From the NCBI RefSeq assembly GCF_009687865.1, contig NZ_BLAE01000079.1:1-54188 (forward strand): 54,188 nt of DNA, read 5' to 3'. A program made the position numbers and the translations under genes. Below, in pieces: positions 7,424 through 28,392 of the stretch; within the stretch, counting starts at the first letter, position 1, and each line of letters opens with the position of its first letter. A model generated the notes under the pieces. It was given only the letters and a program-made list of their open reading frames with translations. It was not told the DNA's origin and ran no database searches. The stretch is from Acrocarpospora macrocephala (lineage in GTDB: Bacteria; Actinomycetota; Actinomycetes; Streptosporangiales; Streptosporangiaceae).

Positions 7424-8020
7424 TTACCAGCCGGGCGAGCCCACGCGCGTGGTGAGCGCGTGTTCCACCAGCGTGATGAGGGTGCTCTTCACCGACTCGC
7501 GGGTTCTGGCGTCGGTCTTGACCACGGGGATGTGCGGGGAGAGCGACAGGGCTTCCCTGATCTCCTCCTCGCCGTGGGCGTAGACGCCGTTGAACCCGTT
7601 GACGCCGACCACGAAGGGCAGCTTGGCTTCCTCGAAGTAGTCCACGGCGGGAAAACTGTCGGCCAACCGGCGGGTGTCCACCAGGACGACCGCGCCGATC
7701 GCGCCACGCACCAGGTCATCCCACATGAACCAGAAACGGTGCTGACCAGGCGTGCCGAACAGATACAGGATCAGATCCTGGTCCAGCGACACCCGGCCGA
7801 AGTCCATCGCCACCGTCGTGGTCGTCTTGTTGGGCGTCAATGCGACGTCGTCGATGTCCTTGGAGGCGTCGGTCATCACCGCCTCGGTCGTCAGCGGCAC
7901 GATCTCCGACACCGCTCCGACGAAAGTCGTCTTGCCAACTCCGAAGCCGCCGGCAACGACGATCTTCGTCGAGGTCAGGCCACGGCTGGCAGTGCCGTGG
8001 CTATAGACGTCGAAGTCCAC
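7424..8020 (-). CDS. Conservon 1 GTPase (CvnD-type)
   Basis: 198-residue cytoplasmic GTP-binding protein, last gene of conservon 1. It has the P-loop GGFGVGKTT (about 26-34), a Thr-rich switch (NKTTTTVAMDFG) and the G3 segment LFGTPGQHRFWF. The usual NKxD specificity motif is replaced by VGVNGFNG, as is normal for this family. In Streptomyces coelicolor, CvnA-B-C-D proteins associate at the membrane like a eukaryotic receptor-G protein set. It overlaps the DUF742 gene by 20 bases. A 90-base stretch (7691-7780) is identical to conservon 2 (16959-17048), indicating recent duplication or gene conversion. Confidence 0.93.
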   Translation of the reverse strand: MDFDVYSHGTASRGLTSTKIVVAGGFGVGKTTFVGAVSEIVPLTTEAVMTDASKDIDDVALTPNKTTTTVAMDFGRVSLDQDLILYLFGTPGQHRFWFMWDDLVRGAIGAVVLVDTRRLADSFPAVDYFEEAKLPFVVGVNGFNGVYAHGEEEIREALSLSPHIPVVKTDARTRESVKSTLITLVEHALTTRVGSPGW

Positions 8021-8384
8021 TGAGTACCCTTTCCAACAATCCCAAGTCCGGCTTCCCGGCGTCCAGCTGTGGCTGGTGCACGTGCACGAGCCCCTCCGCC
8101 GCCATGTCGGCGATCACCACGCGAGCCACGCCCAGGGGCATCCGCAGCAGCGCGGACACCTCGGCGACCGACCGCACCTGGCGGCAGAGCGAGCTGATGG
8201 CCCGCTGCTCGGGCGGCCGGTTGGACAGATCCTGGTGCATCGACGTCGCCGAGGAGACCAGGGCCTCCAGCGCGAGCTGCATGCGCGGCGCCGTCCTCCC
8301 GCCGGTGACCGCGTACGGCCGGACCGGCGAGGCGGGATCCCGCGGCGGGATCGGGGCACCATACGGCGGCCCCCACGAGTCCAT
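8001..8384 (-). CDS. Conservon 1 DUF742 protein (CvnC-type)
   Basis: 127-residue DUF742 protein. The N-terminus is Pro-rich and followed by VRPYAVTGGRT, the family hallmark. A winged-helix-like region follows (CRQVRSVAEVSALLRMPLGVARVVIADM) and a conserved ending (LLERVLSGLRRL). Its biochemical role is unknown; in the conservon it lies between the roadblock protein and the GTPase. The ending overlaps the GTPase start by 20 bases, a coupling seen in all three conservons here. Confidence 0.92.
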   Translation of the reverse strand: MDSWGPPYGAPIPPRDPASPVRPYAVTGGRTAPRMQLALEALVSSATSMHQDLSNRPPEQRAISSLCRQVRSVAEVSALLRMPLGVARVVIADMAAEGLVHVHQPQLDAGKPDLGLLERVLSGLRRL

Positions 8385-8386
8385 GA

Positions 8387-8812
8387 TTATCTCCTCGGGT
8401 GGGTGGCCTGGAGCTCAGCCCGCACCGCGGGAGTCAGAACCTGACCCGCACGTTCGACCAGGAGCGTCATCTGGTAGGCCACGAGGCCCATGTCGCAGTC
8501 GCTGGCGGCCAGCACGGCCAGGCAGGAACCGTCGCTGACCGACATGATCAGCAGCAGCCCGCGCTGCATCTCGACCATGGTCTGGGTGACCGGGCCGCCC
8601 TCGAACACCCGCGAGGCGCCCTGGGTGAGGCTGATCAGCCCGGCGGCGACGGCCGCGAGCTGGTCGGCCCGGTCCTTCGGGAAGCCGTCGGAGTACGCCA
8701 GCGGCAGCCCGTCGGCGGACACCACTACGGTGTGCGCCACGCCGGGCACCGAGCTGACGAAGTCGCTGATCAGCCAGTTGATGCCGCGCGCGGCATGGCT
8801 CATCTCTCGCAC
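8387..8812 (-). CDS. Conservon 1 roadblock/LC7 protein (CvnB-type)
   Basis: 141-residue roadblock/LC7-fold protein (NWLISDFVSSVPGVAHTVVVS, then DGLPLAYSDGFPKDRADQLAAVAAG). Such proteins act as scaffolds or GTPase-activating partners for MglA-like GTPases, which fits the GTPase encoded two genes downstream. It starts with GTG 37 bases after the kinase stop and ends 2 bases before the DUF742 gene. The N-terminal MREMS is also present in conservon 2, supporting this start. Confidence 0.93.
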   Translation of the reverse strand: MREMSHAARGINWLISDFVSSVPGVAHTVVVSADGLPLAYSDGFPKDRADQLAAVAAGLISLTQGASRVFEGGPVTQTMVEMQRGLLLIMSVSDGSCLAVLAASDCDMGLVAYQMTLLVERAGQVLTPAVRAELQATHPRR

Positions 8813-8849: not shown

Positions 8850-11834
8850 TCACGGCTTTTCTCCTCTGCCGGCGCCCGGGTATCCCTCGTCTTCGCTGAT
8901 CTCGCCTCTGGCTACCGCGCGGCCTTGCCGTACCCCCTGCTGGAGGCTGGACAGGCGGCTGCGCGCGCGTTCCGGCGAGAGGGCGGGCATCGGCGCGATG
9001 GCCGGCTTGCCCGCGTCGGCGGAACCGGGCACCAGGTTGGCCTTGGGCACCCGCTTGGGCAGGCCCGAGGAGGTGCTGGCCTCCCAGGAGGGCTGCTGGG
9101 CGGCCGCCTCCCAGCCGTTGTCTGCGGGTGTCTGGTTCCAGCTCTTGTCCTCGGGGCTGCGCTGGAACCAGGCCGATTCCACCGCCGCGAAGATGGGCAG
9201 GAAGTCCTCCGGCCGTTCTTCTCGTACGGCGGGCAGCGGGCCGGTGCTGTCCACATCCATCCCCGACATCCCGGGCATTCCCGAGAACCCAGAGATACCG
9301 GACAGACCGGAATCCCCACGCCGCTTCGGCAGCGGCGGCCCGTTGGAGACCGGGCCTGGCGCGCCGGGCGGGGTGCGCGGGTCGAACGGGGAGCGCATGA
9401 CCTGCCCGGTGGCGGGTGCGTCGAACGGCGACCTGGCGGGCTGCTGGTCGAACGGGTTCTGCTGCCCCGGCGAGGTGCCGAACGCGCCCCGGCCGTCGAA
9501 CGGCGAGGGCGGCAGGGCGCCGGCCGGGCCGCCGCCCAGCGCGTTCCGGCCGTCCGCGGGACCCCGGCCGTCGAACGCGGACCGCTGGGGTCCCCCGTTG
9601 TCGCCGCCGAACATGGCCTGCGGCAGCCCCGGCGGCGGGAAGGACGGGTGCTGTCCGCCGGGACCCGGCGTGGCGAAGGGCCCGCCGGGACCGTTCGGCG
9701 CGGGCGCCGACAGGGCCAGCGGCGGGGCGCCCCAGGCCACGGGCTCGGAGGACTGGCCCTGCGGCGACCAGCTGGGCGCGAAGGTGCCCGCGTACTGCTG
9801 CTGGGAGTACGCCGGAGCGCCCATCAGCGACTCCGGCAGCAGCACCATCGCGGTCAGGCCGCCGCTGTCGTGCGAGCGCAGCTGGACCCGGATGCCGTTG
9901 CGGAGCGCGAGCCGGCCGACCACGAACAGGCCCATCCGGCGGGACACCGACACGTCCACGACCGGCGGGTTGGCCAGCCGCCAGTTGGTCGCGGCGATCT
10001 CCTCCTGGGTCATCCCGATGCCGCCGTCGGTGACCGAGACCATCACGCCGCCGCCGTCGATCCGGTTGCCCGAGACGACCACCCGGGTGTCCCTGGCGGA
10101 GAACGAAAGCGCGTTCTCGACCAGCTCGGCCAGCAGGTGGATGACGTCGTTGACGGCCTGCCCGGCCAGCGCCACGTCGGACGGGATGTTGATGGCGACC
10201 CGCTCGTAGCCCTCGACCTCCGACAGCGCGGCCCGGATGACGTCGGTGAGCTCCACCGGCTGGCTCCACCGGCGGGCGGGTTCCTGCCCGGCGAGGACCA
10301 GGAGGTTCTCACTGTTACGGCGCATGCGGGTGGCCAGGTGGTCCAGCTTGAACAGGTTGCCGAGCCGCTGCTCGTCCTGCTCGCCCTGCTCCAGGCCGTC
10401 GATCAGGGCGATCTGCCGTTCCACCAGGGTCTGGGTACGGCGCGACAGGTTGACGAACATGGCGCTGACGTTGCTGCGCAGCTTGGCCTCGTCACCCGCC
10501 AGCCGGACCGCCTCCTGGTGGACCTCGTCGAAGGCCCGGGCCACTTCCCCGATCTCGTCGGTGGAGGAGACGCCGATGGGCTGCGGTTTCACCTCGGGGG
10601 TGTTGCCGGTGCCGTCGGAGTCGCGCAGCCGCTGGACCAGCTCGGGGAGCTTGTGGCCGGCGATCTCCAGGGCTTCGGAGCGGAGCCGGCGCAGCGGCCG
10701 GACCAGCGATCGGGCCATCGCGGTGGTGATGACCAGCACCAGGCCGAGGATCAGCACGACCACGATGATGTTGGCGATGGCGCCGCGCTGGTCGGCGGCG
10801 GCGAAGCCGTTGCTGCGGTCGACGATGGAGGCGATCTGGAGCTTCTCCACCTCGTGCATCTTGTCGATGCCGGCGCTGCTGACCTGGAACCACTCGTCGC
10901 CGTCCGGGCCTGGGCGGTCGTCCAGGTTGTTGAGCAGGCGGCGAGTCCTGATCACTTCGAGCGCCGACAGCCGGAGGAACTCCGCCCTGTCGATCTCCGG
11001 ACCGGTCACGAGGTCGGCGTAACGCTGGCGTTCGACCGGGGTGGCCACCGTGCGGAACGCGTTCAGCTCGCTCTCCTGCCGCTTGCGGGCGGCGGTGAAC
11101 GCGTCCAGTTCGAGCGGGTCGAGGCGGCCGACGGTGGTGCCGAGGGAGAGCGTGGACCGGACGAGGGAAGCCTCGTTCTTGGCCCGGGCCAGCGAGCCGA
11201 GGGCGGTGGCGCTGGCGTCGAGTTCCTCGTCGACGCCGCCCTGGCCGTTCTCGTCGTACAGGCGGATCAGGTCCGCGATGAACGCGGAGTACTTGTCGAT
11301 CGCGAGCAGCGCGGGGAGCTGAGTTTCCACGGTCGTCTTGCGCAAGTTGGCCAGCTCGCCGAGGCGCCGGTCGAGCCGGGAGAGATTCTGCCGGCCGACT
11401 TCTCCGAAGGAGTCGGCGGCGGTCTCGACGCGGCCCCGGACCGCGTCGGCGAGCACATCTACCGAGCCGCGCTGGTTGCGGACCAGGCCCAGGGCGGGTT
11501 CGCCCGGCCGGCCGGTCTCGATGTAACGCGCCGTCAGATCGCGTTCCAGCTGGAGCTCGTGGATCAGGTCGCTCAGAATGCCGGTGAAGGCCGCCACGTC
11601 GCTGACCCTCTGATATTCGGCGGCGCTGTTGATCGATGTCACCACACGAAGCCCGCCCAGGAGCACCGCTCCGATGGTGGGGACCAGGATCAGGGCGACA
11701 AGGCGGCTGCGGACCCGCCAGTTCTTCAGCGCCATCCGGCTGCGCGTGTCTTCTTCGCCTTCGGGACCGGGAAGGGCCATCTGGGGCGTTTCGGACACGG
11801 TGCGGTGATCATTGTCGATCGTAGCCGTCCTCAC
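8850..11834 (-). CDS. Conservon 1 sensor histidine kinase-like protein (CvnA-type)
   Basis: Receptor-like protein of about 994 residues. An N-terminal membrane segment (LVALILVPTIGAVLLGG) is followed by an extracytoplasmic nitrate/nitrite-sensor-like helical domain, a second segment (IIVVVLILGLVLVITTAMA) and a HAMP linker. Next come a helical region with LDHLATRMRRNSENLL, likely the dimerisation helix, and an HATPase domain (N box ELVENALSFS, G box DGGIGM). The C-terminal third is Pro/Gly-rich with N/S-P-F-D/E motifs and ends in SRLSSLQQGVRQGRAV, also found in the two other kinases. GTG at 11834 lies 8 bases after GGAAGG; GTG at 11843 is possible but too close to it. Confidence 0.92.
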   Translation of the reverse strand: MRTATIDNDHRTVSETPQMALPGPEGEEDTRSRMALKNWRVRSRLVALILVPTIGAVLLGGLRVVTSINSAAEYQRVSDVAAFTGILSDLIHELQLERDLTARYIETGRPGEPALGLVRNQRGSVDVLADAVRGRVETAADSFGEVGRQNLSRLDRRLGELANLRKTTVETQLPALLAIDKYSAFIADLIRLYDENGQGGVDEELDASATALGSLARAKNEASLVRSTLSLGTTVGRLDPLELDAFTAARKRQESELNAFRTVATPVERQRYADLVTGPEIDRAEFLRLSALEVIRTRRLLNNLDDRPGPDGDEWFQVSSAGIDKMHEVEKLQIASIVDRSNGFAAADQRGAIANIIVVVLILGLVLVITTAMARSLVRPLRRLRSEALEIAGHKLPELVQRLRDSDGTGNTPEVKPQPIGVSSTDEIGEVARAFDEVHQEAVRLAGDEAKLRSNVSAMFVNLSRRTQTLVERQIALIDGLEQGEQDEQRLGNLFKLDHLATRMRRNSENLLVLAGQEPARRWSQPVELTDVIRAALSEVEGYERVAINIPSDVALAGQAVNDVIHLLAELVENALSFSARDTRVVVSGNRIDGGGVMVSVTDGGIGMTQEEIAATNWRLANPPVVDVSVSRRMGLFVVGRLALRNGIRVQLRSHDSGGLTAMVLLPESLMGAPAYSQQQYAGTFAPSWSPQGQSSEPVAWGAPPLALSAPAPNGPGGPFATPGPGGQHPSFPPPGLPQAMFGGDNGGPQRSAFDGRGPADGRNALGGGPAGALPPSPFDGRGAFGTSPGQQNPFDQQPARSPFDAPATGQVMRSPFDPRTPPGAPGPVSNGPPLPKRRGDSGLSGISGFSGMPGMSGMDVDSTGPLPAVREERPEDFLPIFAAVESAWFQRSPEDKSWNQTPADNGWEAAAQQPSWEASTSSGLPKRVPKANLVPGSADAGKPAIAPMPALSPERARSRLSSLQQGVRQGRAVARGEISEDEGYPGAGRGEKP

Positions 11835-12240
11835 AGGCCGCACCTTCCGCTAAAGAAAAATCAATTTATCCCGGGAAACCTCCCATAAGCCACGGGCAAT
11901 TGGAGCATAAGACCACGAGATAGACCAATAGCCGTGACCGGATTGCCACGATCCAACACGTTGCGCTCAGTAATGTCGAGAGGTCAGAGCGAACTTCCCT
12001 GGTTGAACCCCAACTACGAACCTTCCATGGGATCACGCGTTCGATGGACCGGTCCAACCCCCCGAAACGCCTCATTTTGCACAAAAGTCGCCAACAGCCG
12101 ACTTGTTTACAAGTTTGGTGACATAGTGCTCTCATTCCTGTTGAGGGGGTTTTTCCTCCGCTACGCTCGTCGCTCGTCGCCCGCCGTGTTCGAGATCATC
12201 TGACGATCCGCGGGCCATTCCCCCAGCTAAAGGAGACTCC
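11835..12240. promoter_or_regulatory. Divergent intergenic region between conservon 1 and the ABC importer operon
   Basis: About 400 bases with lower GC than the genes and no credible coding region. It must hold the promoters of conservon 1 (leftward) and the importer operon (rightward). The clearest element is a 14-base palindrome at 12101-12114, ACTTGT-TT-ACAAGT, about 130 bases before the importer start. AGGAG at about 12231-12235 is the importer ribosome binding site. Confidence 0.5.
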
Positions 12241-13230
12241 ATGAGACGCCTATTCCTGGGCCGACCGCTCGTGGTGAGCGTCCTGGCCGCATTGGCACTC
12301 ACGGCATGCGGCGGCGCCGATACGAATACGACGGCGGACACCTCGAATAACGGCTTGGAAAAAACCGCCCTTACGGTCGGTATCCTTCCTATACCCGACT
12401 CGGCGCCGATCCAGATCGCGATCGACAAGGGTTTCTTCACCGCCGAAGGGCTGACCGTACGGACCTCCATCGAGGTCGGTGGCGCCACCGCCACACCCAA
12501 GCTGGTCGCCGGCCAGCTGGACGCGATTCTCAACAACTACGTCTCCCTGTTCTCCGCGCAGGAGAAGGGCGTGGGCAAGTTCAAGGTGGTCGCGGACAGC
12601 TACCAGGCCGCGCCCGACAACTTCGTCCTGATGGCCAACGCGGACGACGCCAGCATCTCGAGCCCGGCTGACCTGGGCGGCAAGAAGATCGCGGTCAACA
12701 CGCTGAACAACATTGCCACCTTGGCCGTCACCGCCTCCGCCAAGGTGTCCGGCGTGACCATCGACCCCAAGCAGTTCGTGCCGATGCCGCTGCCGGACAT
12801 GGGCGGCGCGCTGAAGAACGGCACCGTGGACGCGATCTGGGTGGCCGAACCGTTCATTTCGGCCTACTCCCAGCAGGGCGCCAAGAAGGTCGCCGACACG
12901 ATGAGCGGCCCGATGGCTGACTTCCCCATCGCCGGCTGGGTGATGAACGACGAATTCGTCAGCAAGAACCCCAAGACGGTGGCCGCCTTCCAGCGCGCGC
13001 TGGCCAAGGCCCAGCAGCTGGCCGCCTCCGACCGCAAGTCGATCGAAGAGGTCCTGCCGAAATACACCAAGATCGACGCGGCCACCGCCTCCGTCATCGC
13101 GCTCGGGGTCTACTCCACCACCCTGAGCGAGGCGCGCCTGCAGCGGGTCGCCGACACGATGAAGGAGTACGGCTACCTGCAGGCCGGGTTCGATGTGAAG
13201 TCGGTGCTGCACGCGCCGACCGCGGGGTGA
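12241..13230 (+). CDS. ABC importer substrate-binding lipoprotein (NMT1/SsuA type)
   Basis: 329-residue exported lipoprotein with the lipobox LALTAC (Cys about 23). It has the NMT1/SsuA-like fold signs: TVGILPIPDSAPIQIAIDKGFF, PKLVAGQLDAILNNY, and VAEPFISAYSQQGAKKVADT. These proteins bind small sulfonates, nitrate/bicarbonate, thiamine precursors or aromatic compounds; the substrate here cannot be read from sequence. The start ATG follows AAAGGAG. It heads a five-gene operon with two permeases, an ATPase and an O-methyltransferase. Confidence 0.9.
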   Translation: MRRLFLGRPLVVSVLAALALTACGGADTNTTADTSNNGLEKTALTVGILPIPDSAPIQIAIDKGFFTAEGLTVRTSIEVGGATATPKLVAGQLDAILNNYVSLFSAQEKGVGKFKVVADSYQAAPDNFVLMANADDASISSPADLGGKKIAVNTLNNIATLAVTASAKVSGVTIDPKQFVPMPLPDMGGALKNGTVDAIWVAEPFISAYSQQGAKKVADTMSGPMADFPIAGWVMNDEFVSKNPKTVAAFQRALAKAQQLAASDRKSIEEVLPKYTKIDAATASVIALGVYSTTLSEARLQRVADTMKEYGYLQAGFDVKSVLHAPTAG

Positions 13231-13231
13231 C

Positions 13232-14014
13232 GTGTCCAGATTGATCAGCTCGACAGTGCTCCGTGGCGTCGTGGGCGCCACGGGGCTGCTTGTCGTTCTG
13301 GAGGCGGCGGGCAGGACCGGCCTCATCGACACCACATTCCTCCCGCTCACCTCCACCGTTCTGGGCAGGGCCGCCGAACTCGCCGTCGACGGGGAGTTCC
13401 TCGGCCACGCGCTCGCCAGCCTGGAGGCCTGGTTCTGGGCGCTCGCGCTGACCATCGCGATCGCGGTGCCGGCCGGTCTGCTGCTCGGGGTGGCCCGGCC
13501 CGCCGAAGTCGCGGCCCGGCCGCTGATCGAGTTCCTCCGGCCCATCCCGTCGGTGGCCCTCATCCCGCTGACTATCATGATCTTTCAGAATCCGGTGCAC
13601 ATGCGCATGTCGGTCGCGGTGTACGCGGCCACCTGGCCGGTGCTGATCAACACCATCTACGGCGTACGGGACGTCGACCCGCTGGCCAAGGAGACGCTGC
13701 GGAGCTTCGGTTTCGGTCCTGGCGCAACGGTGTTTCGGGTCGTGCTACCCAGCGCGGCTCCGTTCATCGCCACCGGGGTACGGCTGGCCGCCTCGGTCGC
13801 CATCATCCTGGTGGTCACCGCCGAGGTGGTGGCGGGCGGTATCGCCGGCATCGGCGTCTTCATCAGCACGGCGGGCAGCGGCAACCGGGTCGACCTGATG
13901 ATCGCCGCGACCGCCTGGGTGGGCCTGTTCGGCATCGCCGTCAACTCGCTGCTGGTGGCCGCGGAGAAACGACTCTTCCGCTGGCATCACAGCCGGATGG
14001 CGGGTGTGTCGTGA
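13232..14014 (+). CDS. ABC importer permease 1 (SsuC type)
   Basis: 260-residue inner-membrane permease of the BPD-transport-1/SsuC family with about six membrane segments. The EAA loop is recognisable around DPLAKETLRSFGFGPGATVFRVVLPSAAP. It starts with GTG one base after the binding-protein stop and overlaps permease 2 by a GTGA. Two different permeases suggest a heterodimeric channel, where SsuC-type systems often use one. Confidence 0.9.
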   Translation: MSRLISSTVLRGVVGATGLLVVLEAAGRTGLIDTTFLPLTSTVLGRAAELAVDGEFLGHALASLEAWFWALALTIAIAVPAGLLLGVARPAEVAARPLIEFLRPIPSVALIPLTIMIFQNPVHMRMSVAVYAATWPVLINTIYGVRDVDPLAKETLRSFGFGPGATVFRVVLPSAAPFIATGVRLAASVAIILVVTAEVVAGGIAGIGVFISTAGSGNRVDLMIAATAWVGLFGIAVNSLLVAAEKRLFRWHHSRMAGVS

Positions 14015-14823
14015 CCCGCGTACGCTCCAAACGGAAAAGCTTCGCGAGCAGGGTGGCCGGGCTCTGGATCGTGCCGGTGACGCTGGTGCTGTGGGAGCTG
14101 GCCACCCGGCTCGCCACCCAGCCCTACTTCCCCGCGCCGAGCACGATCGCGGTGCGCATCCAGGAGCTCTGGTTCTCCGGGCCGCTGACCCGGGGGCTGC
14201 TCACCGACGAGGCGATCGAGGCGTTCGCGCCGAGCCTCGGCCGGCTGTTCGCGGGCTGGATCCTGGCCAGCGCGGCCGGAATCCTGCTCGGGGTCGCCAT
14301 CGGGCGGTCGGCCAGGCTGGCCGACTACCTGGACCCGATGTTGCAGTTCGGCCGGGCGGTGCCGCCACCACTGCTGGTGCCGATCTTCTTCGCGCTGTTC
14401 CAGATCGGCATGGCCACCCAGCTGGCGATCATCGTCTTCGGCGTGATCTGGCCGGTGCTGCTGAACACCGCGGACGGCTGCAAGACCGTGGATCGCCAGT
14501 ATCTGGAGACGGCCCGGGTCTTCGGGTTCTCCCGCGCCGACGTGCTGTGGCGGGTGGTGATCCCGGCGGCCATGCCGAAGATCTTCGCAGGTCTGCGGCT
14601 CAGCCTGTCCCTGGCGCTGATCCTGATGGTGGTGTCCGAGCTGATCGGCAGCACCAGCGGGATCGGATACGGCCTGATCACCGCGCAGCAGAACTTCCTG
14701 TTCGCCGACGTATGGGCCTACATCGTCCTGCTCGGCGTGCTGGGATTCCTGCTCAACGCCTCGTTCCTCCTGCTGGAGGGCCGCATCCTGGCATGGCATC
14801 AGCGTGCCCGGCGGACGATCTAG
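14011..14823 (+). CDS. ABC importer permease 2 (SsuC type)
   Basis: 270-residue second permease of the same family. Signs are six or so membrane segments and the EAA loop near DRQYLETARVFGFSRADVLWRVVIPAAMP. Start GTG at 14011 overlaps the previous stop. It should pair with permease 1 and the ATPase that begins 28 bases downstream. Confidence 0.9.
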   Translation: MTRVRSKRKSFASRVAGLWIVPVTLVLWELATRLATQPYFPAPSTIAVRIQELWFSGPLTRGLLTDEAIEAFAPSLGRLFAGWILASAAGILLGVAIGRSARLADYLDPMLQFGRAVPPPLLVPIFFALFQIGMATQLAIIVFGVIWPVLLNTADGCKTVDRQYLETARVFGFSRADVLWRVVIPAAMPKIFAGLRLSLSLALILMVVSELIGSTSGIGYGLITAQQNFLFADVWAYIVLLGVLGFLLNASFLLLEGRILAWHQRARRTI

Positions 14824-14851
14824 AAGATCTCGGAAGATCTAGGAAGCTCCG

Positions 14852-16674: not shown

Positions 16675-16709
16675 GCCGTCCCCGGCTAGCGCTGCCAGCC
16701 GGGGACGGC
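16675..16709. terminator. Bidirectional terminator between the methyltransferase and conservon 2
   Basis: Perfect 12-bp stem (GCCGTCCCCGGC and its complement) with an 11-base loop, between convergent genes. It includes the stop and last codons of the conservon 2 GTPase gene. There is no strong T-tract on either side. Confidence 0.6.
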
Positions 16710-21000: not shown

Positions 21001-21381
21001 GCCCCGGATGCCGTCCACCTTGTTCTGCTGGTTGAGTACCTGGTTCTTCCGGGAGTTGCGGAAGCCCTCGGCGCTGTACATGGCCATCAGGTCGCGTTCT
21101 CTGGCCAGCTCGTGGTTGATCTCGTCCAGCTGGACCACGAGTTCGGCGACCTGGGTGAGCCGGCGGTACTCGGCCGACGTGCTGATCGCCGCGGTGAGCT
21201 GAACACCGGCGAACAGCACGCCGACGACCGTCGGCAGGAGGATCAGCGCGACCAGGCGGGAGCGCACCCGCCAGTTGCCCAGCCGCATAAACGCAGCGCG
21301 GGAGCCGGAGGAAGCCGCCGAAGCCGTGGGCTCCGGCCCGTTCCCTATCGCTCGGCCACCTCGCGGGTCGTGCGTTGTCAC
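18091..21381 (-). CDS. Conservon 2 sensor histidine kinase-like protein (CvnA-type) with NPF repeats
   Basis: 1096-residue receptor-like protein with the same plan as conservon 1: membrane segment (LVALILLPTVVGVLFAGV), extracytoplasmic helical sensor domain, second membrane segment (ISGVLILVLLAVVLAITALVA), HAMP, LDHLATRMRRNSENLL helix, and HATPase domain (ELVENAISFS, DVGIGMT). The long low-complexity tail (from about residue 670) contains at least eight N/S-P-F-D/E/G motifs, densest at 18800-19080. It ends in SRLSSFQQGVRQGRAVARG like the other kinases. The start is GTG at 21381. Confidence 0.92.
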   Translation of the reverse strand: MTTHDPRGGRAIGNGPEPTASAASSGSRAAFMRLGNWRVRSRLVALILLPTVVGVLFAGVQLTAAISTSAEYRRLTQVAELVVQLDEINHELARERDLMAMYSAEGFRNSRKNQVLNQQNKVDGIRGRVIESLQTLDESQPTRVLNQAKRITGWLQGLEGHRKGLINSQVPARGAIGMYTRMIADISVLHEDLGRSGADQQLFGDSLALTALSRAKENLSRSRGILTVAIIAKGKLDYDDLSDFLTAVRNHDADLVTFQKEASPAIAALYKSTVQGPEVERTHSMRALALAQVRAGTFIGNLDLLRSNDASSWYNAASSTIDLMREVEKDLGAEVVTHSQSLQDSEQRSAIISGVLILVLLAVVLAITALVASSLTRPLRRLRREALEIAGSRLPDTVQRLRESGESAEAPDVFPIGVTTSDEIGEVARAFDEVHREAVRLAGDEAKLRSNVNSMFVNLSRRTQTLVERQLSLIEGLEQGEQDDQRLGNLFKLDHLATRMRRNSENLLVLAGQEPARRWGQPVPVVDVVRASLSEVENYERVNIQIQPGVAVVGQSVNDVVHLVAELVENAISFSPRETKVAVSSNRIDGGGLMISVSDVGIGMTGEELAAANWRLANPPVVDVSVSRRMGLFVVGRLALRHGIRVQLRQQDMGGLTAMVLLPESLLSQPAAFPGMPQQPAALPGGPQQYGLPPAPAFGQPALASPTSFETMARPPVFGADAPGMGAPEPWRRGRFENFEQRNQQGGFDRTPPALERGQERGPFDTGSTTNPFGTRNPFEPAAGSNPFDTGPNRNPFDPGGRSPFESGAFGAGNATGPNPFDPSTSGGFNTTGPNPFDPSTSGGFGAGNTTGPNPFDSGAFSSGSYASPRPFDNGAPPETSWPGQPPTPGSPSWPGGPQGAPGERGNGWPGRPLRGPFEPDVDNTGPLPVVRSSPLEEIDEFLPIFAAVESDWFRRSAPSSEEPDGDAEGGPAERKAWSSPADAGWQAAKAAAEPALGGVTSSGLPKRVPKANLVPGSADSKPSSAVAAAAVAPAAVPAAPPGPMPGVSPERVRSRLSSFQQGVRQGRAVARGDISEEQGWPGAVHSGPESDKDEA

Positions 21382-21500: not shown

Positions 21501-22781
21501 TTACTTGGCAGCGACCTTCTCGATGACATCTGCGGCAACCCGCAACCCGTCCCGGCGGCGGATCTCCGCGCCGGCGACGGCCAGGCGTTCGCGCAGCTCG
21601 GTGTCGCCGAGCAGGCGGTCGAGCGCCGCGTAGAGCTCTTCGTCGGTGAACGTGTAGGTGTTCAGGCGGACGCCGTAACCGGTCTCGTGGACCCGCTGGG
21701 CGTTGTCGTACTGGTCCCAGAACAGCGGCAGCACGATCATCGGCTTGCCGAAGTGCAGCGCCTCGGTGGTGGTGTTGTTGCCGCCGTGGGTGATGACGAG
21801 GTCGACCAGCGGAATGATCTTAGTCTGCGGCACGAACTCCGCACCCCACATATTGGGCGCGAGCTCGATTTCCGCATGCAGCGGGCCCTTGGAGACGATG
21901 TATTTGTGCGGTGTACGGCCCAGCGCGTCGATCACCCGCCGCATCAGCTCCACATCGGCCGAACCGAGCGAGCCGAGCGAGAAGTAGATCAACGCCTCAT
22001 CGCCGCGCTCGAACGGAAGCGTGAAAGACTCATCGGTCTCGCGGACCGAGGAGTCCAGCCGGGTCCACGACGGATCCAGCGGGCGCTCTGCGGTGTAGTC
22101 GATGATCTCGGGGTAGACGTAGAGGTTGGCGTCGCCCTCGTGGATGAAGTCCAGGTCCGGCAGCGGCGGGGCGCCCTGCTCGACCACCCAGGCATTGAAC
22201 GCGGTCCAGATCTCCCGGTGGGTGCGGTCGTACTCGGCCCGGAACTCCGCCCAGCCGGTGCCGTCGGCGGGCAGGCCGGAGAAGACCGGGGCCACGCCGT
22301 CGCCGCGCACCTCCAGCGGGTTGCACGACATGATCCGGACGAACGGCACGCCCGCGGTCAGCAGCGCCGGGAAGGTGATGACGTTGTCCTCGACGATCAC
22401 ATCCGGCTTGACCCGGGCGATGATGTCCTTCAGCTGCGGCTCGCAGTACTTCGCGCCGTCGATCAGCGCGTCCCAGATCGGCTTGGTGACCGTCTCCAGC
22501 TGCACCTGGGTGGACTTGCGGTATTCCGGCGCGGTGTCGCGGATGAAGTCCTTCCAGAACTGGCCGGCGTCCTGCTCCCCCGCGTCCTCGGCGGGCTCGG
22601 CCAGGTCGACCAGGTCCTCCTCGAACCCGAGGGCGGTCAGCTTGCCCTTCCAGGACGCCTCCGCGGCGAAGACCACCCGGTGCCCGCGGCGGCGCAGCAC
22701 GTCGCCGATGCCGATGCAGTTGTTGGTGGGCCCGTAGGCGCTCTCCGGCATGAAGAGCACCGTCAGCGGCTGCTCAACCAT
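21501..22781 (-). CDS. UGT-type glycosyltransferase (MGT/GT1 family)
   Basis: 426-residue GT1-fold glycosyltransferase that should move a sugar from a nucleotide donor to a lipophilic small molecule or macrolide. The N-terminal acceptor domain begins PLTVLFMPESAYGPTNNC and includes GHRVVFAAEASW. The C-terminal donor site is clear: YFSLGSLG and THGGNNTTTEALHFGKP then LPLFWDQYDNAQR, the bacterial form of the plant PSPG motif. The ATG at 22781 gives the family-typical start. It lies downstream of an extracytoplasmic binding lipoprotein, with a strong hairpin between them. The acceptor is unknown. Confidence 0.9.
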   Translation of the reverse strand: MVEQPLTVLFMPESAYGPTNNCIGIGDVLRRRGHRVVFAAEASWKGKLTALGFEEDLVDLAEPAEDAGEQDAGQFWKDFIRDTAPEYRKSTQVQLETVTKPIWDALIDGAKYCEPQLKDIIARVKPDVIVEDNVITFPALLTAGVPFVRIMSCNPLEVRGDGVAPVFSGLPADGTGWAEFRAEYDRTHREIWTAFNAWVVEQGAPPLPDLDFIHEGDANLYVYPEIIDYTAERPLDPSWTRLDSSVRETDESFTLPFERGDEALIYFSLGSLGSADVELMRRVIDALGRTPHKYIVSKGPLHAEIELAPNMWGAEFVPQTKIIPLVDLVITHGGNNTTTEALHFGKPMIVLPLFWDQYDNAQRVHETGYGVRLNTYTFTDEELYAALDRLLGDTELRERLAVAGAEIRRRDGLRVAADVIEKVAAK

Positions 22782-22825
22782 TCGTCTGTCTCCCGATCGC
22801 AATCAATGTCCGGTGGGGACGGCAG

Positions 22826-22854
22826 GGCGGCGGGCGCCACAAGCGCCCGCCGCC
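22826..22854 (-). terminator. Intercistronic hairpin between binding lipoprotein and glycosyltransferase
   Basis: Perfect 12-bp GC stem (GGCGGCGGGCGC and complement) with a 5-base loop, 12 bases past the lipoprotein stop and 45 bases before the glycosyltransferase start. There is no T-tract. It probably protects or partly terminates the lipoprotein message. Confidence 0.55.
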
Positions 22855-22866
22855 ACACCAACGGCC

Positions 22867-24000
22867 TTACTGAGCTGCCTGGACCTCGGTCGACAGGCGG
22901 GTGTACTTCACCGAGTCCTGGCCGAGGTCGATGATCGACTCACCCTCCAGCAACTTCGCGGGCGTCATCGCGAGCGGCGGGTAGGACGCGTAGAGCGCGG
23001 GGTCCACGCTGTCCATCGCGGCCTTGTTGGGGACCTTGTAGAGGATGTTCGCGGCCACCCACCCGTGCACCTTCGGGTCCAGGATGTAGTTGATGAAGGC
23101 GTGCGCCGCCTCCTTGTTCTTGGAGGACTTCAGGATCACCATCGTGTCCGCCCAGAGGTCGCTGCCCTCGGTCGGGATGACGAACTTGACCTTCGGCTTG
23201 TCCGTCGGGCACCAGCCGTCCCAGGCCACGGCCATGGCCGCCTGGCCCTCGGCCACCTTCGTGCCGAAGGTGGTGTCGTCGAAGGCGAGCATCGTCGACT
23301 TGGCCTTGAGCAGCAGATCCTTGGCCGCGGCCAGGTCGGCGTCGGAGGTGGTGTTGATCGACTTCTTGAGGGCCTTCAGCGCGGGCAGCGCGAGCCAGCG
23401 CTCGGTGGTCATCATGAGGACCTTGCCGACGGCCTTGCCCTTCGGGACGAGGATGTCGTTCCAGCTGGTCGGCGGCGCGTCCACCAGGTCGGTGCGGTAG
23501 CAGATGCCGGTGGTGCCCCAGGTGTAGGGCACGGAGAAGACGTTGCCCTTGTCGTAGGACAGGTTGGCGGCCTCGGGGTAGAGGTTGGCCAGGTTCGGGA
23601 TCAGCTCGGGGTGCAGGGGCTCGAGCAGACCGGCCTCGTTGAGCGCCTGCGCGTACTGACCGGAGACGAACACCAGGTCGAAGCTGGTGTCCTGGCCGGT
23701 GGTCAGCTTGCCCATGATTTCTTCGTTGGTGGCATGCGGAGCGATCTTCAGATCGAACTTCAGATCCTTCTTGATCCGCTCGGGGAGGTCCGGCGGGCTG
23801 TACCCCTCCCAGATCGACATGGAGAGGCTCTGCTTGCTGAGATCAGCGTTGGGGTCGAGCTGAACCGTCGTGGCGCTAGGCGCCGCCGCCGCGGTGGAGT
23901 CCGGCGAGGTGCTTGATCCACCACACGCGGCCAGCGCGAGGACAAGTCCGGCGGCAGTGAAAGCAGCCGGCAGTTGACGGGTGTACCGGATACGGGACAC
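22867..24000 (-). CDS. Orphan extracellular solute-binding lipoprotein (PotD/PotF type)
   Basis: 377-residue exported lipoprotein with lipobox LALAAC and the plan of spermidine/putrescine-binding proteins: SMSIWEGYSPPDLPERI, DLVFVSGQYAQALNEAGLLEPL, and YTWGTTGICYRTDLV. The start is GTG at 24000, placed 8 bases after AAGGAG. An in-frame ATG at 24075 is less likely because it has no binding site and would precede the signal peptide by 25 residues. No permease or ATPase gene lies nearby, so it either feeds a transporter encoded elsewhere or has a sensing role. A palindrome at 24128-24141 may control it. Confidence 0.88.
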   Translation of the reverse strand: MSRIRYTRQLPAAFTAAGLVLALAACGGSSTSPDSTAAAAPSATTVQLDPNADLSKQSLSMSIWEGYSPPDLPERIKKDLKFDLKIAPHATNEEIMGKLTTGQDTSFDLVFVSGQYAQALNEAGLLEPLHPELIPNLANLYPEAANLSYDKGNVFSVPYTWGTTGICYRTDLVDAPPTSWNDILVPKGKAVGKVLMMTTERWLALPALKALKKSINTTSDADLAAAKDLLLKAKSTMLAFDDTTFGTKVAEGQAAMAVAWDGWCPTDKPKVKFVIPTEGSDLWADTMVILKSSKNKEAAHAFINYILDPKVHGWVAANILYKVPNKAAMDSVDPALYASYPPLAMTPAKLLEGESIIDLGQDSVKYTRLSTEVQAAQ

Positions 24001-24127
24001 GACCGCTACTCCTTCATAGGTGCCTTGATGCCTGCGAGCAGCAGACCAAAGAGGGAGTGTTGCAGTCCATATCAAGATAGATCAAGACTTTTCGGGACAT
24101 TGTTAGCTGGACGTTCACGGTCCGATT

Positions 24128-24270: not shown

Positions 24271-24855
24271 CTAGTACGGTCTCCCGTACGCCGACCGCAC
24301 CGTCAGCACATATTCCACCAAGGTGATCAAAGTCGACTTGACCGCCTCCCGGGAACGCGCGTCCGTACGGATGACCGGAATGGTGGCGGCCAGCGACAGC
24401 GCCTCCCGCACCTCCTCCTCGGCGTGCAGGAACTGCCCGTCCCAGCCGTTCATCGCCACCACGAAGGGCAGCTGGGCCTCTTCGAAGTAGTCGATGGCCG
24501 GGAAGCTGTCGGCCAACCGGCGGCTGTCCACCAGCACGACCGCGCCGATCGCGCCCCGCACCAGGTCATCCCACATGAACCAGAAACGGTGCTGCCCGGG
24601 CGTGCCGAACAGGTACAGGATCAGGTCCTGGTCGAGGGAGAGCCGGCCGAAGTCCATGGCCACCGTGGTGGTGGTCTTGTTCGGCGTCAGCCCGAGGTCG
24701 TCGATGCCGGTGCTGGCATCGGTCATCACCGCTTCGGTCGTCAGCGGAAGGATCTCCGAGACGGCACCGACGAAGGTCGTCTTGCCCACGCCGAACCCGC
24801 CCGCCACGACGATCTTCGTCGAGGTCAGGCCGCGACTAGAGCCTGCGAAGTCCAC
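24271..24855 (-). CDS. Conservon 3 GTPase (CvnD-type)
   Basis: 194-residue member of the same GTPase family (P-loop GGFGVGKTT; FGTPGQHRFWF). It is more diverged from the other two: the last 60 residues differ (FVVAMNGWDGQFLHAEEE), and the N-terminus is short. It overlaps the DUF742 gene by 20 bases. A terminator hairpin follows. Confidence 0.92.
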   Translation of the reverse strand: MDFAGSSRGLTSTKIVVAGGFGVGKTTFVGAVSEILPLTTEAVMTDASTGIDDLGLTPNKTTTTVAMDFGRLSLDQDLILYLFGTPGQHRFWFMWDDLVRGAIGAVVLVDSRRLADSFPAIDYFEEAQLPFVVAMNGWDGQFLHAEEEVREALSLAATIPVIRTDARSREAVKSTLITLVEYVLTVRSAYGRPY

Positions 24856-25198
24856 TGAGCACCCTTTCGAGCAAATTGTGGTCTGGTTGTCCCTGGTTGA
24901 GCTGCGGCATGTGCAGGCGGACCAGACCCTCGTCGGCCAGGTCGGCGATCAGCACCCGCGCCACGCCGAGGGGGACCCGGAGCAGCGCGGAGATCTCCGC
25001 GACCGAACGCACGGAACGGCAGAGCGTCATGATCGCTTCCTGCTCGGGCTCGAGCATCGAGTAGTCATCGCTCATGAACGTCACCGTGGAGACCAACGTC
25101 TCCATCGCCAGATGGTAACGCGGTTCCGCACGTCCTCCGGTGACGGCGTACGGACGGAAGAGCGGCTCGTCCTCCGTACCCTCAGGTCCACGCATCAC
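24836..25198 (-). CDS. Conservon 3 DUF742 protein (CvnC-type)
   Basis: 120-residue DUF742 protein (FRPYAVTGGRA, CRSVRSVAEISALLRVPLG, ending LLERVLSGLRRL). Compared with the first two it has a more acidic centre. It follows the roadblock gene by 6 bases. Confidence 0.9.
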   Translation of the reverse strand: MMRGPEGTEDEPLFRPYAVTGGRAEPRYHLAMETLVSTVTFMSDDYSMLEPEQEAIMTLCRSVRSVAEISALLRVPLGVARVLIADLADEGLVRLHMPQLNQGQPDHNLLERVLSGLRRL

Positions 25199-25204: not shown

Positions 25205-25624
25205 TCACCGGCGACTGGTCTGCAGTTCGGCCCGCAACGCCGGCGTGAGCGTCTGACCTGCGCGCTCGACCAGCAGCGTCATCTGGTAGGCCACCAGACC
25301 CATGTCGCAGTCCGGCGCCGCCAGCACGGTCAGGCAGGAGCCGTCGCTGATGGCCATCACGAGCACCAGGCCGCGCTGCATCTCCACCACGGTCTGGGTC
25401 ACCTCGCCGCCGTCGAACACCCGGGAGGCGCCCGCCGTGAGGCTGAGCAGCCCGGCGGCCACCGCCGCCAGCTGGTCGGCCCGGTCCGGGGGAAAGCCGT
25501 CGGAGTTCGCCAGCCGCAGGCCGTCGGCGGAGACCACCACGGCGTGCGCGACGCCGGGGGTGCCGCTCACGAACTCGGTGATCAGCCAGTCGAACCTGCG
25601 CGCCTCGACGCTCAGCTCGTTCAC
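25205..25624 (-). CDS. Conservon 3 roadblock/LC7 protein (CvnB-type)
   Basis: 139-residue roadblock protein (FDWLITEFVSGTPGVAHAVVVS, then [19 protein letters not shown]). The GTG at 25624 overlaps the kinase stop as GTGA, giving translational coupling. It is less like conservons 1 and 2 than these are like each other. Confidence 0.92.
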   Translation of the reverse strand: MNELSVEARRFDWLITEFVSGTPGVAHAVVVSADGLRLANSDGFPPDRADQLAAVAAGLLSLTAGASRVFDGGEVTQTVVEMQRGLVLVMAISDGSCLTVLAAPDCDMGLVAYQMTLLVERAGQTLTPALRAELQTSRR

Positions 25625-28392
25625 GAGCCCTCCCTCTCATTCGCCGATCCGTCGGCCGATTCGCCGGCCGCTTCCGCGCGGCCCCGCCGTACACCCTGCT
25701 GGAAGCTGGAGAACCGATCCCGCACCGCTTCTGGCGAGACCGGCGGGGCCGTGGCGGGCGGGGAGCTCGCCGCGTTCACCGATCCTGGCACCAGATTCGC
25801 CCGGGGCGTGCGGCGGGGCAGCCCCGCCGGCGTCACCCCGCCCGCGGCCGGCTCGTTGGCCGCCGCCGCCGCGCGGTAGCCGGTGTCCGCGCTGGACCGC
25901 CAGGCACTCTGCGGCGGTACGGCCTGCGGCGGCACGCCCGGCATGGGCACGCCCTGCGGCGGCGTGCTCTGCGGCGGCACGACCGGGGGCTTCTGGTCCG
26001 GACGGCGGAACCAGGCCGACTCCACCGAGGCGAAGATCGGCAGGTACTCGTCGCCGCGTTCCAGCGACTCCGCCCGCGGCTCGTACGACGGCGCGCCCAG
26101 CACCGGGAACGCTCCCGAATGCTCGGTGAAGGCCGGGAACGCGGCGGTGATCTCCCCCGCCTGCTCCGGCCGGCCCGGCGGCCGGGGCGGCGCGCCGAAC
26201 GCGGACCACCCGTTGGACGAGGCCGGCTCCCTGGGCATCTCCCGCGGCGCGTGCCGGGGCGGTTCCTGCGGCGGGACCGGCCTGCGCACCGGCAGGCCGC
26301 TGGTGGTCGTGGGCATGTGGAACGCGCCGGTGGGCTCGATGGCCGCGGGCGTCGGCCAGGCCGGCACCTCGCCGTATCCGGTGGCCACCGGCTTGGCGTC
26401 CGGGTTGGCGATCAGCTCAGCCGGGAACAGCACCATCGCGATCAGCCCGGTCACGTCGCCCGGCCGCAGCTGCACCCGGATCCCGTGCCGCTGCGCCAGC
26501 CGGCCGACCACGAACAGACCCATCCGCCGGGAGACCGACACGTCCACGGTGGGCGGCTCGGCCAGCCGCCGGTTGATCTCCATGATCTCCTCGGGGGACA
26601 GCCCGATGCCGGTGTCGCTGACCGCGAGCAGGACCGCGCCGCCCTCGATCGGGCTGCTGGAGACGATCACCTTGGTGTCCCGCGAGGAGAACGCGACCGC
26701 GTTCTCGACCAGCTCCGCGACCAGGTGCACCACGTCGTTCGCCGCGTGCCCGGCCACGGCCGCGGAACGGTGCACCCGCACGGTGACCCGCTCGTAGCCC
26801 TCGACCTCCGACAGCGACGCCCGGACCACGTCCACCAGGCGGGCGGGCTGGCTGCGCTTGCGCGCGGGCTCGTGCCCGGCCAGGACCAGCAGGTTCTCGC
26901 TGTTGCGGCGCATGCGGGTGGCCAGGTGGTCCAGCTTGAACAGGTCGGCGAGGCGGGTGCCGTCCTGCTCGCCGCGTTCCAGGCCGTCGATGAGCGAGAT
27001 CTGCCGCTCCACCAGGGTCTGGGTCCGGCGGGACAGGTTGACGAACATCGCGTTGACGTTGTTGCGCAGCTGCGACTCCTCGGCGGCCAGCCGGACCGCC
27101 TGCTGGTGCACCTCGTCGAAGGCCTGCGCCACCTCGCCGATCTCGTCGGCGCTGTCCACGGTGACCGAGTGGTCGTCGGCGGGCTGCTGGGGCTCACCGG
27201 CCTCGCGCATCCGCCGCACCACCTCGGGCAGGCGGATCCCGGCGATCTCCAGGGCCTCGGCCCGCAGCCGGCGCAGCGGGCGCACCATCGACCGGGCGAT
27301 GAGCACGGTGGTGGCCAGCACCAGCAGGATCAGCGCGAGGATGAGGCCGCCCGCGATGAGGGCGCTGCGCTGCTCGGCGGACTGCAGCGCGGAGGCCCGG
27401 CCCAGCACCTGGTCGGCCACCTGCTGCTCCACGCCGGTGAGCGCCTCCAGGGCGGCCGTGTTGTCCTTGAACCACTCCTGCGCGGTGATCACCCGGCCGG
27501 GGATCGGGCGCAGCGCGTGGTTGCGGGAGCCGAGCGCGACCGCCCACGCCTTGGTCATCTCCACGTCCCTGGCGGCCGGCACGCTGCGGGCCTTGTAGAA
27601 GGCCGTGAACGCGGCCGTGTCGGCCTCGGCGTTGAACGCGGTGGTATAGCCGGCCTGCCGGGACCAGGAGCCGAGGAAGCGCTGCAGGTCGTCGGGGGTG
27701 AAGGCCTGGCGCGGCTCCAGCAGCTCCGTGGTCAGCACGGCGCGCTGCTGGGAGGCCTCGTCCTTGGCGTGGGCCAGCGCGGACAGGGCCCGGGAGGCGG
27801 CGACCACCTGCGGGTCGTCGCTGATCTCGCCGAGCTCGTCGTGCAGGCGCAGGATGGTGGCGATGGCCTGGCCGTAGTCGAAGAAGACCGAGGTCGCCGC
27901 GTCCTTGTCGCGTTCCGCGGCGTGGCTGTCGGCGATGACCTCCAGCCGGCTGAGCGTCTGCCTGGCCTCCTCGGCGGCGCGCTCGCCGTAGGACTCGTCG
28001 ATCTGCTTGACGTCGTCGATGGAGGCGGCCAGCAGGCGGTCGACGGTGGCCTTCTGCTGGTTGAGGTCGTATTCCTGCTGCTGGATGACGCGGCCGGGAT
28101 CGCGGAGCGAGGCACGCACCCCGATCAGGCCGTCCACCCAGGCCGTGCGGTCGCGTTCCGTCGCGAGCTGCTGGCTCAGGTCGCGCAGCCGGGCCGCGTA
28201 CTCGGCGGCGGCCAGGGTGCGTTCGTTGGCGGCGATGCTGTCGACTGATTCGGTGACCCGGATGCCCGCCAGGATGACGGCGATCAGGGTCGGCGCGAGG
28301 ATCAGGGCGGTCAGCCGGGTTGGCACGCGCCAGTTCCGCAGCGCGAAGCGTTTGGCCCGTTCCCGTTCTCCGGTCTTTTGTTCCGTGCTCAC
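25621..28392 (-). CDS. Conservon 3 sensor histidine kinase-like protein (CvnA-type)
   Basis: 923-residue receptor-like protein: membrane segment (LTALILAPTLIAVILAGI), extracytoplasmic helical sensor domain, second segment (IAGGLILALILLVLATTVLIA), HAMP, LDHLATRMRRNSENLL helix, HATPase domain (ELVENAVAFS, DTGIGLS). The tail is Pro-rich (repeated P-P-Q) without NPF motifs and ends in RFSSFQQGVRRGRAEA. It starts at GTG 28392. Two related inverted repeats upstream (28461-28510) may be operators. Confidence 0.92.
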   Translation of the reverse strand: MSTEQKTGERERAKRFALRNWRVPTRLTALILAPTLIAVILAGIRVTESVDSIAANERTLAAAEYAARLRDLSQQLATERDRTAWVDGLIGVRASLRDPGRVIQQQEYDLNQQKATVDRLLAASIDDVKQIDESYGERAAEEARQTLSRLEVIADSHAAERDKDAATSVFFDYGQAIATILRLHDELGEISDDPQVVAASRALSALAHAKDEASQQRAVLTTELLEPRQAFTPDDLQRFLGSWSRQAGYTTAFNAEADTAAFTAFYKARSVPAARDVEMTKAWAVALGSRNHALRPIPGRVITAQEWFKDNTAALEALTGVEQQVADQVLGRASALQSAEQRSALIAGGLILALILLVLATTVLIARSMVRPLRRLRAEALEIAGIRLPEVVRRMREAGEPQQPADDHSVTVDSADEIGEVAQAFDEVHQQAVRLAAEESQLRNNVNAMFVNLSRRTQTLVERQISLIDGLERGEQDGTRLADLFKLDHLATRMRRNSENLLVLAGHEPARKRSQPARLVDVVRASLSEVEGYERVTVRVHRSAAVAGHAANDVVHLVAELVENAVAFSSRDTKVIVSSSPIEGGAVLLAVSDTGIGLSPEEIMEINRRLAEPPTVDVSVSRRMGLFVVGRLAQRHGIRVQLRPGDVTGLIAMVLFPAELIANPDAKPVATGYGEVPAWPTPAAIEPTGAFHMPTTTSGLPVRRPVPPQEPPRHAPREMPREPASSNGWSAFGAPPRPPGRPEQAGEITAAFPAFTEHSGAFPVLGAPSYEPRAESLERGDEYLPIFASVESAWFRRPDQKPPVVPPQSTPPQGVPMPGVPPQAVPPQSAWRSSADTGYRAAAAANEPAAGGVTPAGLPRRTPRANLVPGSVNAASSPPATAPPVSPEAVRDRFSSFQQGVRRGRAEAAGESADGSANEREGS

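Follow-up and report, generated by a model that had tools for sequence, protein, structure and literature searches.

The closest described relatives of the system analysed here are the NIT-type conservons (cvn1 to cvn6 of Streptomyces coelicolor), which encode a histidine-kinase-like receptor with a NIT sensor domain (CvnA), a roadblock/LC7 protein (CvnB), a DUF742 protein (CvnC) and a Ras-like GTPase (CvnD). The published accessory proteins CvnE and CvnF accompany receptors without the NIT domain, and the same 2026 paper considers it likely that CvnA NIT domains sense other ligands, a point it leaves to be tested (PMC13343842). An actinobacterial precedent for a binding lipoprotein in signalling is the GlnH-GlnX-PknG system of mycobacteria and corynebacteria (PMC6069109). 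In the open-access literature, a scope outside of which most subscription papers fall, no paper was found on conservons with ATP-binding cassette (ABC) transporters or with substrate- or solute-binding proteins (SBPs). Here we describe such a combination in a window of 54,188 nucleotides (the whole stretch of DNA analysed, i.e., positions 1 to 54,188 of contig NZ_BLAE01000079.1 of Acrocarpospora macrocephala). On balance, comparison of the sequences favours the reading that this is a tandemly duplicated array of NIT conservons, located between glnD and ffh, that works with dedicated solute-binding lipoproteins, which would serve either as co-receptors or in a regulated unit of uptake.

The original prediction of three complete conservons in the same gene order and on the same strand is borne out by Pfam searches (28392-24271, 21381-16686 and 11843-7424, all on the minus strand). 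Each set combines a CvnA consisting of a NIT sensor, HAMP and HATPase with Robl_LC7 (CvnB), DUF742 (CvnC) and ATP_bind_1 (CvnD) proteins, in this order and on one strand. The presence of NIT in all three CvnA proteins fits the rule that CvnE and CvnF accompany receptors without a sensor domain; no Pfam match to P450 (CvnE) or GAF (CvnF) was detected among the genes of the block. In gene content, order, strand, domains and overlap of the C and D genes, the array resembles cvn1 to cvn6; it differs from them in the three tandem copies, the diverged sensors and the binding lipoproteins interposed at glnD-ffh. The contents of the two gaps also are as initially described. Gap 1 (between CvnD1 and CvnA2; 21501-24075, minus strand) encodes a GT1-type glycosyltransferase (hereafter GT1) and a PotD-like binding lipoprotein (hereafter SBP8), and gap 2 (between CvnD2 and CvnA3; 12241-16629, plus strand) encodes an NMT1-type binding protein, two permeases, an ATPase and an O-methyltransferase. 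The genes are densely packed, the longest gap being 397 bp, between the divergent genes for CvnA3 and the NMT1-type SBP. According to the Pfam assignments, the array fills the interval between ffh and glnD-glnB-amtB, a point missed in the original prediction.

The clustering of conservons in the window goes beyond chance because three of the 10 DUF742 matches in the 12.1 Mb genome lie within ~17 kb. The accompanying statement that Streptomyces conservons are usually scattered calls for a caveat: CvnA2 (SCO5540) and CvnA1 (SCO5544) of S. coelicolor are neighbours by locus tag (PMC9739842). The genome of A. macrocephala (G000; G, C and L numbers denote genomes, contigs and loci of this analysis) contains a second conservon cluster (L171, G000:C84:3000-18000), with two units ~8 kb apart that are dissimilar to the array copies and the first of which shows no roadblock or GTPase match to the window proteins. 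The 20-base overlap between the DUF742 and GTPase genes is exact in all three window sets, as had been noted. An in-frame start that gives this overlap was found in all 41 array rows and in 64 of 79 rows from other loci (the latter include four duplicates of conservons from the window or from arrays: L001, L003, L004 and L088), so that the overlap was rejected as a hallmark of the array and is a general conservon trait.

The array is not confined to one strain (such a confinement would have counted against the original prediction): it occupies glnD-ffh in 16 of the 37 Streptosporangiaceae genomes, representing 12 of the 33 genera (the genome of the window included), with contig breaks in three of the 16 (G003, G007 and G029). 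In nine of the 37 genomes, glnD and ffh share a contig without conservons, with less than 0.5 kb between them in eight and 4.9 kb in G006; two others are cut by contig ends (G005 and G024), and ten lack a glnD match at E<=1e-40. The two genes are adjacent in G020, G030 and, outside the family, G057, and in G037, from another family, they are separated by 10.6 kb filled by other genes, with no conservon matches. Arrays in G060 to G075 are deduced from DUF742 spacing, and for four of these genomes also from L253 to L256. A reduction of the Microbispora arrays to two conservons was considered and rejected: several are broken by contig ends, with the NMT1 SBP and the third DUF742 gene on another contig. 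Among the variants, G013 (L025/L026) contains an array remnant, a conservon without CvnA, and G019 (L023) an extra lone CvnC-like gene. Nonomuraea deserti (G007; L035, L036, L050, L088 and L089) seemingly possesses a much larger array spread over three contigs that may join (C77, C45 and C119) and that together carry multiple conservons along with GT1, SBP8 and genes for uptake of the betaine and NMT1 types.

For the comparison of conservons, 80 loci were picked among the DUF742 matches listed, starting from the best E-values and passing over most short contigs; 74 of them yielded 79 recognised conservons, and seven loci fetched for their SBP joined the tallies (L055, L058, L061, L063, L067, L070 and L079). 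Of the 138 conservons detected, seven were dropped as short or duplicate (L001, L002, L005, L008 and L009) or cut (L074 and L088), and 81 of the remaining 131 entered a concatenated CvnA-B-C-D tree, a quick tree with Shimodaira-Hasegawa-like approximate likelihood ratio test (SH-aLRT) supports and no bootstrap. All 45 array conservons form one clade (SH-aLRT 100). The three window conservons belong to this clade and are, by this tree, tandem duplicates; the 15 position-1 conservons are monophyletic (SH-aLRT 100) and, therefore, at least the first duplication is older than these genera. Thus, judging from the tree, the array is an old tandem duplication of one ancestral conservon, vertically inherited in Streptosporangiaceae. 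A branch with support 99 unites the array with L165, seven further single conservons and a set of single conservons that are paired with an SBP or an importer (L055, L058, L061, L063, L067, L162 and L166). Immediately outside this branch are L070, which also has an SBP partner, and two tandem conservons from G057. The latter pair (L091, G057, 6084000-6103900), a tandem of NIT conservons of a probable Streptomyces, lies ~50 kb from glnD and by inference matches cvn1/cvn2; in the tree it is a neighbour of the array clade, and conservons may have become linked to the glnD region before the array arose.

The window paralogs are only 24-32% identical in the NIT domain and much more similar in the HAMP-HATPase kinase core (69-80%), CvnB (77-92%), CvnC (63-85%) and CvnD (82-89%). 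By these identities, the array combines private sensors with similar switches, so that the copies most likely hear different signals and address similar or shared targets.

The NMT1-type SBP of gap 2 is flanked in the window directly by the genes of its own permeases. The nearest folds to its predicted structure are TauA, SsuA and CmpA, which places it in the TauA/SsuA/NrtA/CmpA fold group; the scores are below the curated cut-offs of SsuA_fam (95.4 of 163.5 bits) and TauA (45 of 304.25), and therefore its substrate is not assignable to sulfonate or taurine. The lipobox cysteine is present in 14 of 14 aligned rows. An NMT1-type SBP or importer gene is divergent from CvnA in 12 of the 45 array conservons. 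When a divergent SBP or permease gene within three genes upstream of CvnA is counted, the pairing is found in the same 12/45 array conservons, 8/20 conservons near the clade (six of these eight loci were fetched for their SBP, and their conservons are also among the DUF742 matches), 1/41 other NIT conservons (L163, a weak match) and 0/25 conservons without NIT. Outside the array, nine of 39 NMT1-SBP hits (eight of 37 loci, several being cut by contig ends) adjoin CvnA and are transcribed away from it; these all come from genera in which the array is absent or the junction was unread, two of them (G037 and G047) from other families. In L067, the importer is interposed between the NMT1-type SBP and CvnA, and L068 is cut by a contig end.

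Other importers occur at the same place. In Sinosporangium (G008), CvnA is head-to-head with importer genes that encode an ATPase, a permease and a betaine-type binding protein; in N. deserti, an ABC ATPase gene is head-to-head with CvnA, close to the genes for a GMC oxidoreductase and a betaine-type SBP, and two further contigs, taken as parts of the array, carry a nitrilase-like hydrolase, an amidohydrolase and an NMT1-type SBP without permeases between CvnD and CvnA. Much of the cargo in these two genomes suggests, from the gene families, nitrogen-containing nutrients, next to amtB-glnB-glnD. Pairing of NIT conservons in general with binding proteins was considered and rejected: upstream of other NIT conservons, different genes recur (in Pfam terms, for one example from each of four such groups, argininosuccinate lyase, short-chain dehydrogenase, squalene-hopene-cyclase-like protein and VanY-like carboxypeptidase). 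Two loci stand somewhat apart. In L163 (G058), the genes for two permeases and a weakly NMT1-like SBP are divergent from, and upstream of, a NIT conservon outside the clade; this pairing may be independent. In L065 (G017:C406, 6537-10064), a NIT CvnA is head-to-head with an NMT1-type SBP and no CvnB, CvnC or CvnD was found by the models; this is possibly a receptor-SBP pair without a switch or a rearranged copy.

In many relatives, gap 1 holds more genes than in the window. The full set, present in most of the fetched loci of Nonomuraea, Streptosporangium, Sphaerisporangium, Planobispora, Planomonospora and Sinosporangium, consists of genes for a SIS protein, a glucosamine kinase homolog, SBP8, PotB, PotC, an ATPase, a TetR family regulator and GT1 (PotB is unrecognised in a few loci). 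A search started with the kinase homolog from G034 identifies glucosamine kinase (PDB entry 6hwj, E 1.1e-59); its NCBIfam score is 269 bits, below the cut-off of 550. The trio of glucosamine kinase, SIS and GT1 genes is shared with described actinobacterial clusters (PMC6520443); the version found here is embedded among conservons and has a Pot-type importer and TetR in addition, with SBP8 and GT1 as the only genes of the set left in the window array. Judging from these comparisons, the gap-1 cargo of the window is a remnant of a glucosamine-kinase-like/importer cluster. The kinase and SIS genes are absent from the window array and have homologs on contig C31 of the same genome (L252), in the order SIS-kinase-PotB-PotC-ATPase-TetR, with no SBP8 between the kinase and PotB and no GT1; SBP8 remains in the window array without permeases, and PotB/PotC persist elsewhere in the genome. 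A search of the open reading frames flanking L252 gave many reverse-frame matches, which were set aside, and a match just downstream of GT1 (~75% over ~460 residues), a flavin adenine dinucleotide (FAD)-dependent oxidoreductase by Pfam. In each of the five Acrocarpospora genomes (g1) and in G036, the kinase and PotB genes adjoin each other on another contig, and SBP8 is single-copy at E<=1e-40 and located in the array. In all four Microtetraspora genomes, SBP8 stands alone between CvnD1 and CvnA2, with intergenic stretches below ~0.4 kb (L253 to L256), and the importer cluster, with GT1 and without SBP8, is elsewhere (L188, L189, L190 and L192). SBP8 is the gap-1 gene that most often stays with the conservons once the rest is elsewhere. 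That the Microtetraspora array has retained the binding protein alone suggests a role in binding the ligand and not in modifying it. A close SBP8 was missing in four of the 16 genomes searched for it; weaker PotD-like paralogs (28-35% identity) occur in these 16 genomes, and the genome of the window was searched at the E<=1e-40 level.

GT1 itself is separable. Conservon genes are present in the fetched DNA (up to 10 kb on each side, less at contig ends) of 62 of the 80 best GT1 loci out of 466 relatives, a selection in which close kin are over-represented, and the 18 loci without them come mainly from Microbispora, Planotetraspora, Microtetraspora and Sphaerimonospora. In this sample, GT1 is not found mostly away from conservons (a predominance of cargo away from them was the other outcome that would have spoken against the original prediction). 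Among the 60 genomes searched, GT1 is off the array in G013 and G026, which carry arrays, and in several array-free genomes; as a conservon partner, it is weakened by its off-array place in Microtetraspora. The suggestion that the cargo is tied to the receptors thus holds for transport, considering the conservation of the array across genera, the head-to-head NMT1 importers and the retention of SBP8; the more specific idea that the cargo supplies or modifies the ligand stays conjectural.

Given these associations, functional coupling between the SBPs and the conservons is probable, and direct contact between an SBP and a NIT domain is conceivable, though tentative. In the proposed scheme, an ancestral conservon would have come from a lineage often paired with an SBP-dependent importer and then would have been tandemly duplicated. 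In each unit, the outward-looking four-helix NIT receptor (CvnA) would feed the more conserved inner switch of CvnB, CvnC and the CvnD GTPase. Of the two interspersed lipoproteins, SBP8 follows CvnD1 and is separated from CvnA2 by GT1, and the NMT1-type protein is encoded divergently from CvnA3. A ligand-loaded lipoprotein and/or a small anion would act on the neighbouring NIT domain and thereby report extracellular, probably nitrogen-containing, nutrients; the HAMP and kinase-like core would then change, CvnB and CvnC would set the GTP state of CvnD, and this setting would adjust uptake and metabolism. Effects of S. coelicolor CvnA1 on antibiotics and aerial growth (PMC9739842) illustrate a possible output. 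In its strictest form, which we put forward only tentatively, the SBP lipoproteins would be outside co-receptors of the NIT-conservon branch, each array position pairing, or having once paired, a private SBP with a private NIT ectodomain that feeds similar switches. With a Ras-like GTPase at its base, the array would then sense nutrients through multiple channels, and the SBPs would be the NIT counterpart of CvnE/CvnF. As in GlnH-GlnX-PknG, an extracytoplasmic binding lipoprotein and a receptor with a four-helix domain would be tied to an inner switch (PMC6069109), and both SBP8 and the NMT1-type SBP, encoded with the receptors, have a lipobox cysteine. The comparison concerns the way of working only: the output of the known system is a Ser/Thr kinase and its receptor has two four-helix-bundle domains, whereas the receptors of the array are of the NIT type, contain a kinase-like core themselves and are accompanied by a GTPase module, and Pfam detects no Ser/Thr kinase (the PknG partner) among the genes of the block.

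Several observations weigh against such coupling. SBP8 is part of the outside cluster in Microbispora, Sphaerimonospora and a Planotetraspora (the four such copies included in the SBP8 tree form one clade; this tree comprises 28 of 78 sequences and the GT1 tree 29 of 81, chosen for genus spread), and its retention may represent one or two independent events. The NMT1 importer is in the array but not head-to-head in G013, G016 and G031; an NMT1 SBP is absent at E<=1e-40 from G067, where four DUF742 genes lie close together; and most NIT conservons outside the array clade have no such SBP neighbour. Furthermore, direct sensing of a small anion without an SBP is possible because the NIT pockets keep most of the nitrate-binding arginines of NasR.

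The alternative that survives best, although we consider it unlikely, is that the conservons regulate the adjacent importer genes, in which case the SBPs would only transport, the head-to-head layout would be a shared regulatory region and nothing would dock on the receptor. The 397-bp divergent region and the recurrence of this layout with both NMT1- and betaine-type importers are compatible with such regulation, as is the repression by cvn8 of an adjacent lanthipeptide cluster (PMC13343842), but it leaves unexplained the lone SBP8 in the Microtetraspora array, with the importer elsewhere, and the permease-less NMT1 SBP in the N. deserti array. Less probable is the direct binding of nitrate, nitrite or another small anion by the NIT ectodomains, with the array acting as a nitrogen-status sensor beside amtB-glnB-glnD and the transporters being incidental or separate nitrogen scavengers. 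A profile search with NIT identifies the nitrate-sensing NasR (4akk, E 3.6e-27), and the model of the CvnA3 ectodomain has the same fold; in NasR, this domain is joined to an RNA-binding ANTAR domain, whereas in the array it is extracytoplasmic, on a kinase-like core. In 28 aligned NIT domains (24 from the array and four related), the arginines of the NasR pocket, among which Arg48 and the third arginine are positions that we take to belong to it, are mostly retained (Arg48 in 28/28, Arg176 in 26/28 and the third in 19/28). R176 is named as a pocket residue in PMC7496416. The third arginine, however, is replaced by lysine in all five position-1 receptors of the set and lost in four others; NIT domains as different as those of the window paralogs are unlike several sensors for one anion; and NIT domains that do not bind nitrate are cited, with other ligands deemed likely for CvnA (PMC13343842). 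The lysine of the position-1 receptors is, in itself, a possible specificity change. The notion that glnD-ffh is merely a tolerant site, where a duplicated conservon and passing genes settled with historical rather than functional linkage, draws on the other genes that fill this gap in the array-free G037 and G006, on the cargo differing between genera and on the GT1 loci without a conservon gene nearby, but is improbable given the constant gene order in many genera, the SBP pairing of related single conservons away from glnD-ffh, and the finding that, of the seven genomes whose array lacks an NMT1 SBP, six show just two clustered DUF742 genes (G026, G060, G064, G065, G066 and G068; by coordinates, with contig ends and the glnD-ffh site checked in G026).

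Table. Genes of the conservon array and its flanks in the A. macrocephala window.
Feature	Coordinates	Strand	Evidence
glnD, glnB, amtB (upstream-side anchor)	28545..32579	-	Pfam GlnD_UR_UTase, P-II, Ammonium_transp
CvnA1, histidine-kinase-like receptor, NIT ectodomain/HAMP/HATPase, position 1, adjoins glnD	25621..28392	-	Pfam NIT E 4.5e-23, HATPase_c, HAMP; position-1 clade SH-aLRT 100
CvnB1, roadblock/LC7	25205..25624	-	Pfam Robl_LC7 E 1.9e-24
CvnC1, DUF742	24836..25198	-	Pfam E 2.2e-35
CvnD1, Ras-like GTPase (ATP_bind_1)	24271..24855	-	Pfam E 3.8e-32; 20-bp overlap with CvnC1
SBP8, PotD-like solute-binding lipoprotein, lipobox LAAC-G	22867..24075	-	Pfam SBP_bac_8 E 4.5e-25; PDB PotD-type E 7.6e-37
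GT1-type glycosyltransferase	21501..22802	-	Pfam UDPGT, EryCIII-like_C; NCBIfam MGT 142 bits, below cut-off 260
CvnA2, NIT-HAMP-HATPase receptor, position 2	18091..21381	-	Pfam NIT E 8.1e-38
CvnB2, roadblock/LC7	17672..18094	-	Pfam
CvnC2, DUF742	17281..17652	-	Pfam
CvnD2, GTPase	16686..17300	-	Pfam
O-methyltransferase (Methyltransf_2), last in importer operon	15622..16629	+	Pfam E 3.3e-38; 4-bp overlap with ATPase gene
ABC importer ATPase	14852..15625	+	Pfam ABC_tran
ABC importer permease B	14011..14823	+	Pfam BPD_transp_1
ABC importer permease A	13232..14014	+	Pfam BPD_transp_1
NMT1/SsuA-type solute-binding lipoprotein, lipobox LTAC-G, head-to-head with CvnA3	12241..13230	+	Pfam NMT1 E 9e-22; model pLDDT (predicted local distance difference test) 87.5
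397-bp divergent intergenic region, CvnA3/importer operon	11844..12240		same head-to-head layout in relatives
CvnA3, NIT-HAMP-HATPase receptor, position 3	8850..11843	-	Pfam NIT E 3.5e-42; ectodomain model pLDDT 88.5, best fold NasR 4akk, template modelling (TM) score 0.79
CvnB3, roadblock/LC7	8387..8812	-	Pfam
CvnC3, DUF742	8001..8384	-	Pfam
CvnD3, GTPase	7424..8020	-	Pfam
ffh, rpsP, rimM, trmD (downstream-side anchor)	3512..7361	-	Pfam SRP54, Ribosomal_S16, RimM, tRNA_m1G_MT

The inputs of conservons are largely unknown, and the array supplies named candidate pairs of SBPs and receptors along with candidate classes of ligands. A binding protein that is separated from its importer and yet stays with the conservon is a hint to what these receptors may sense.

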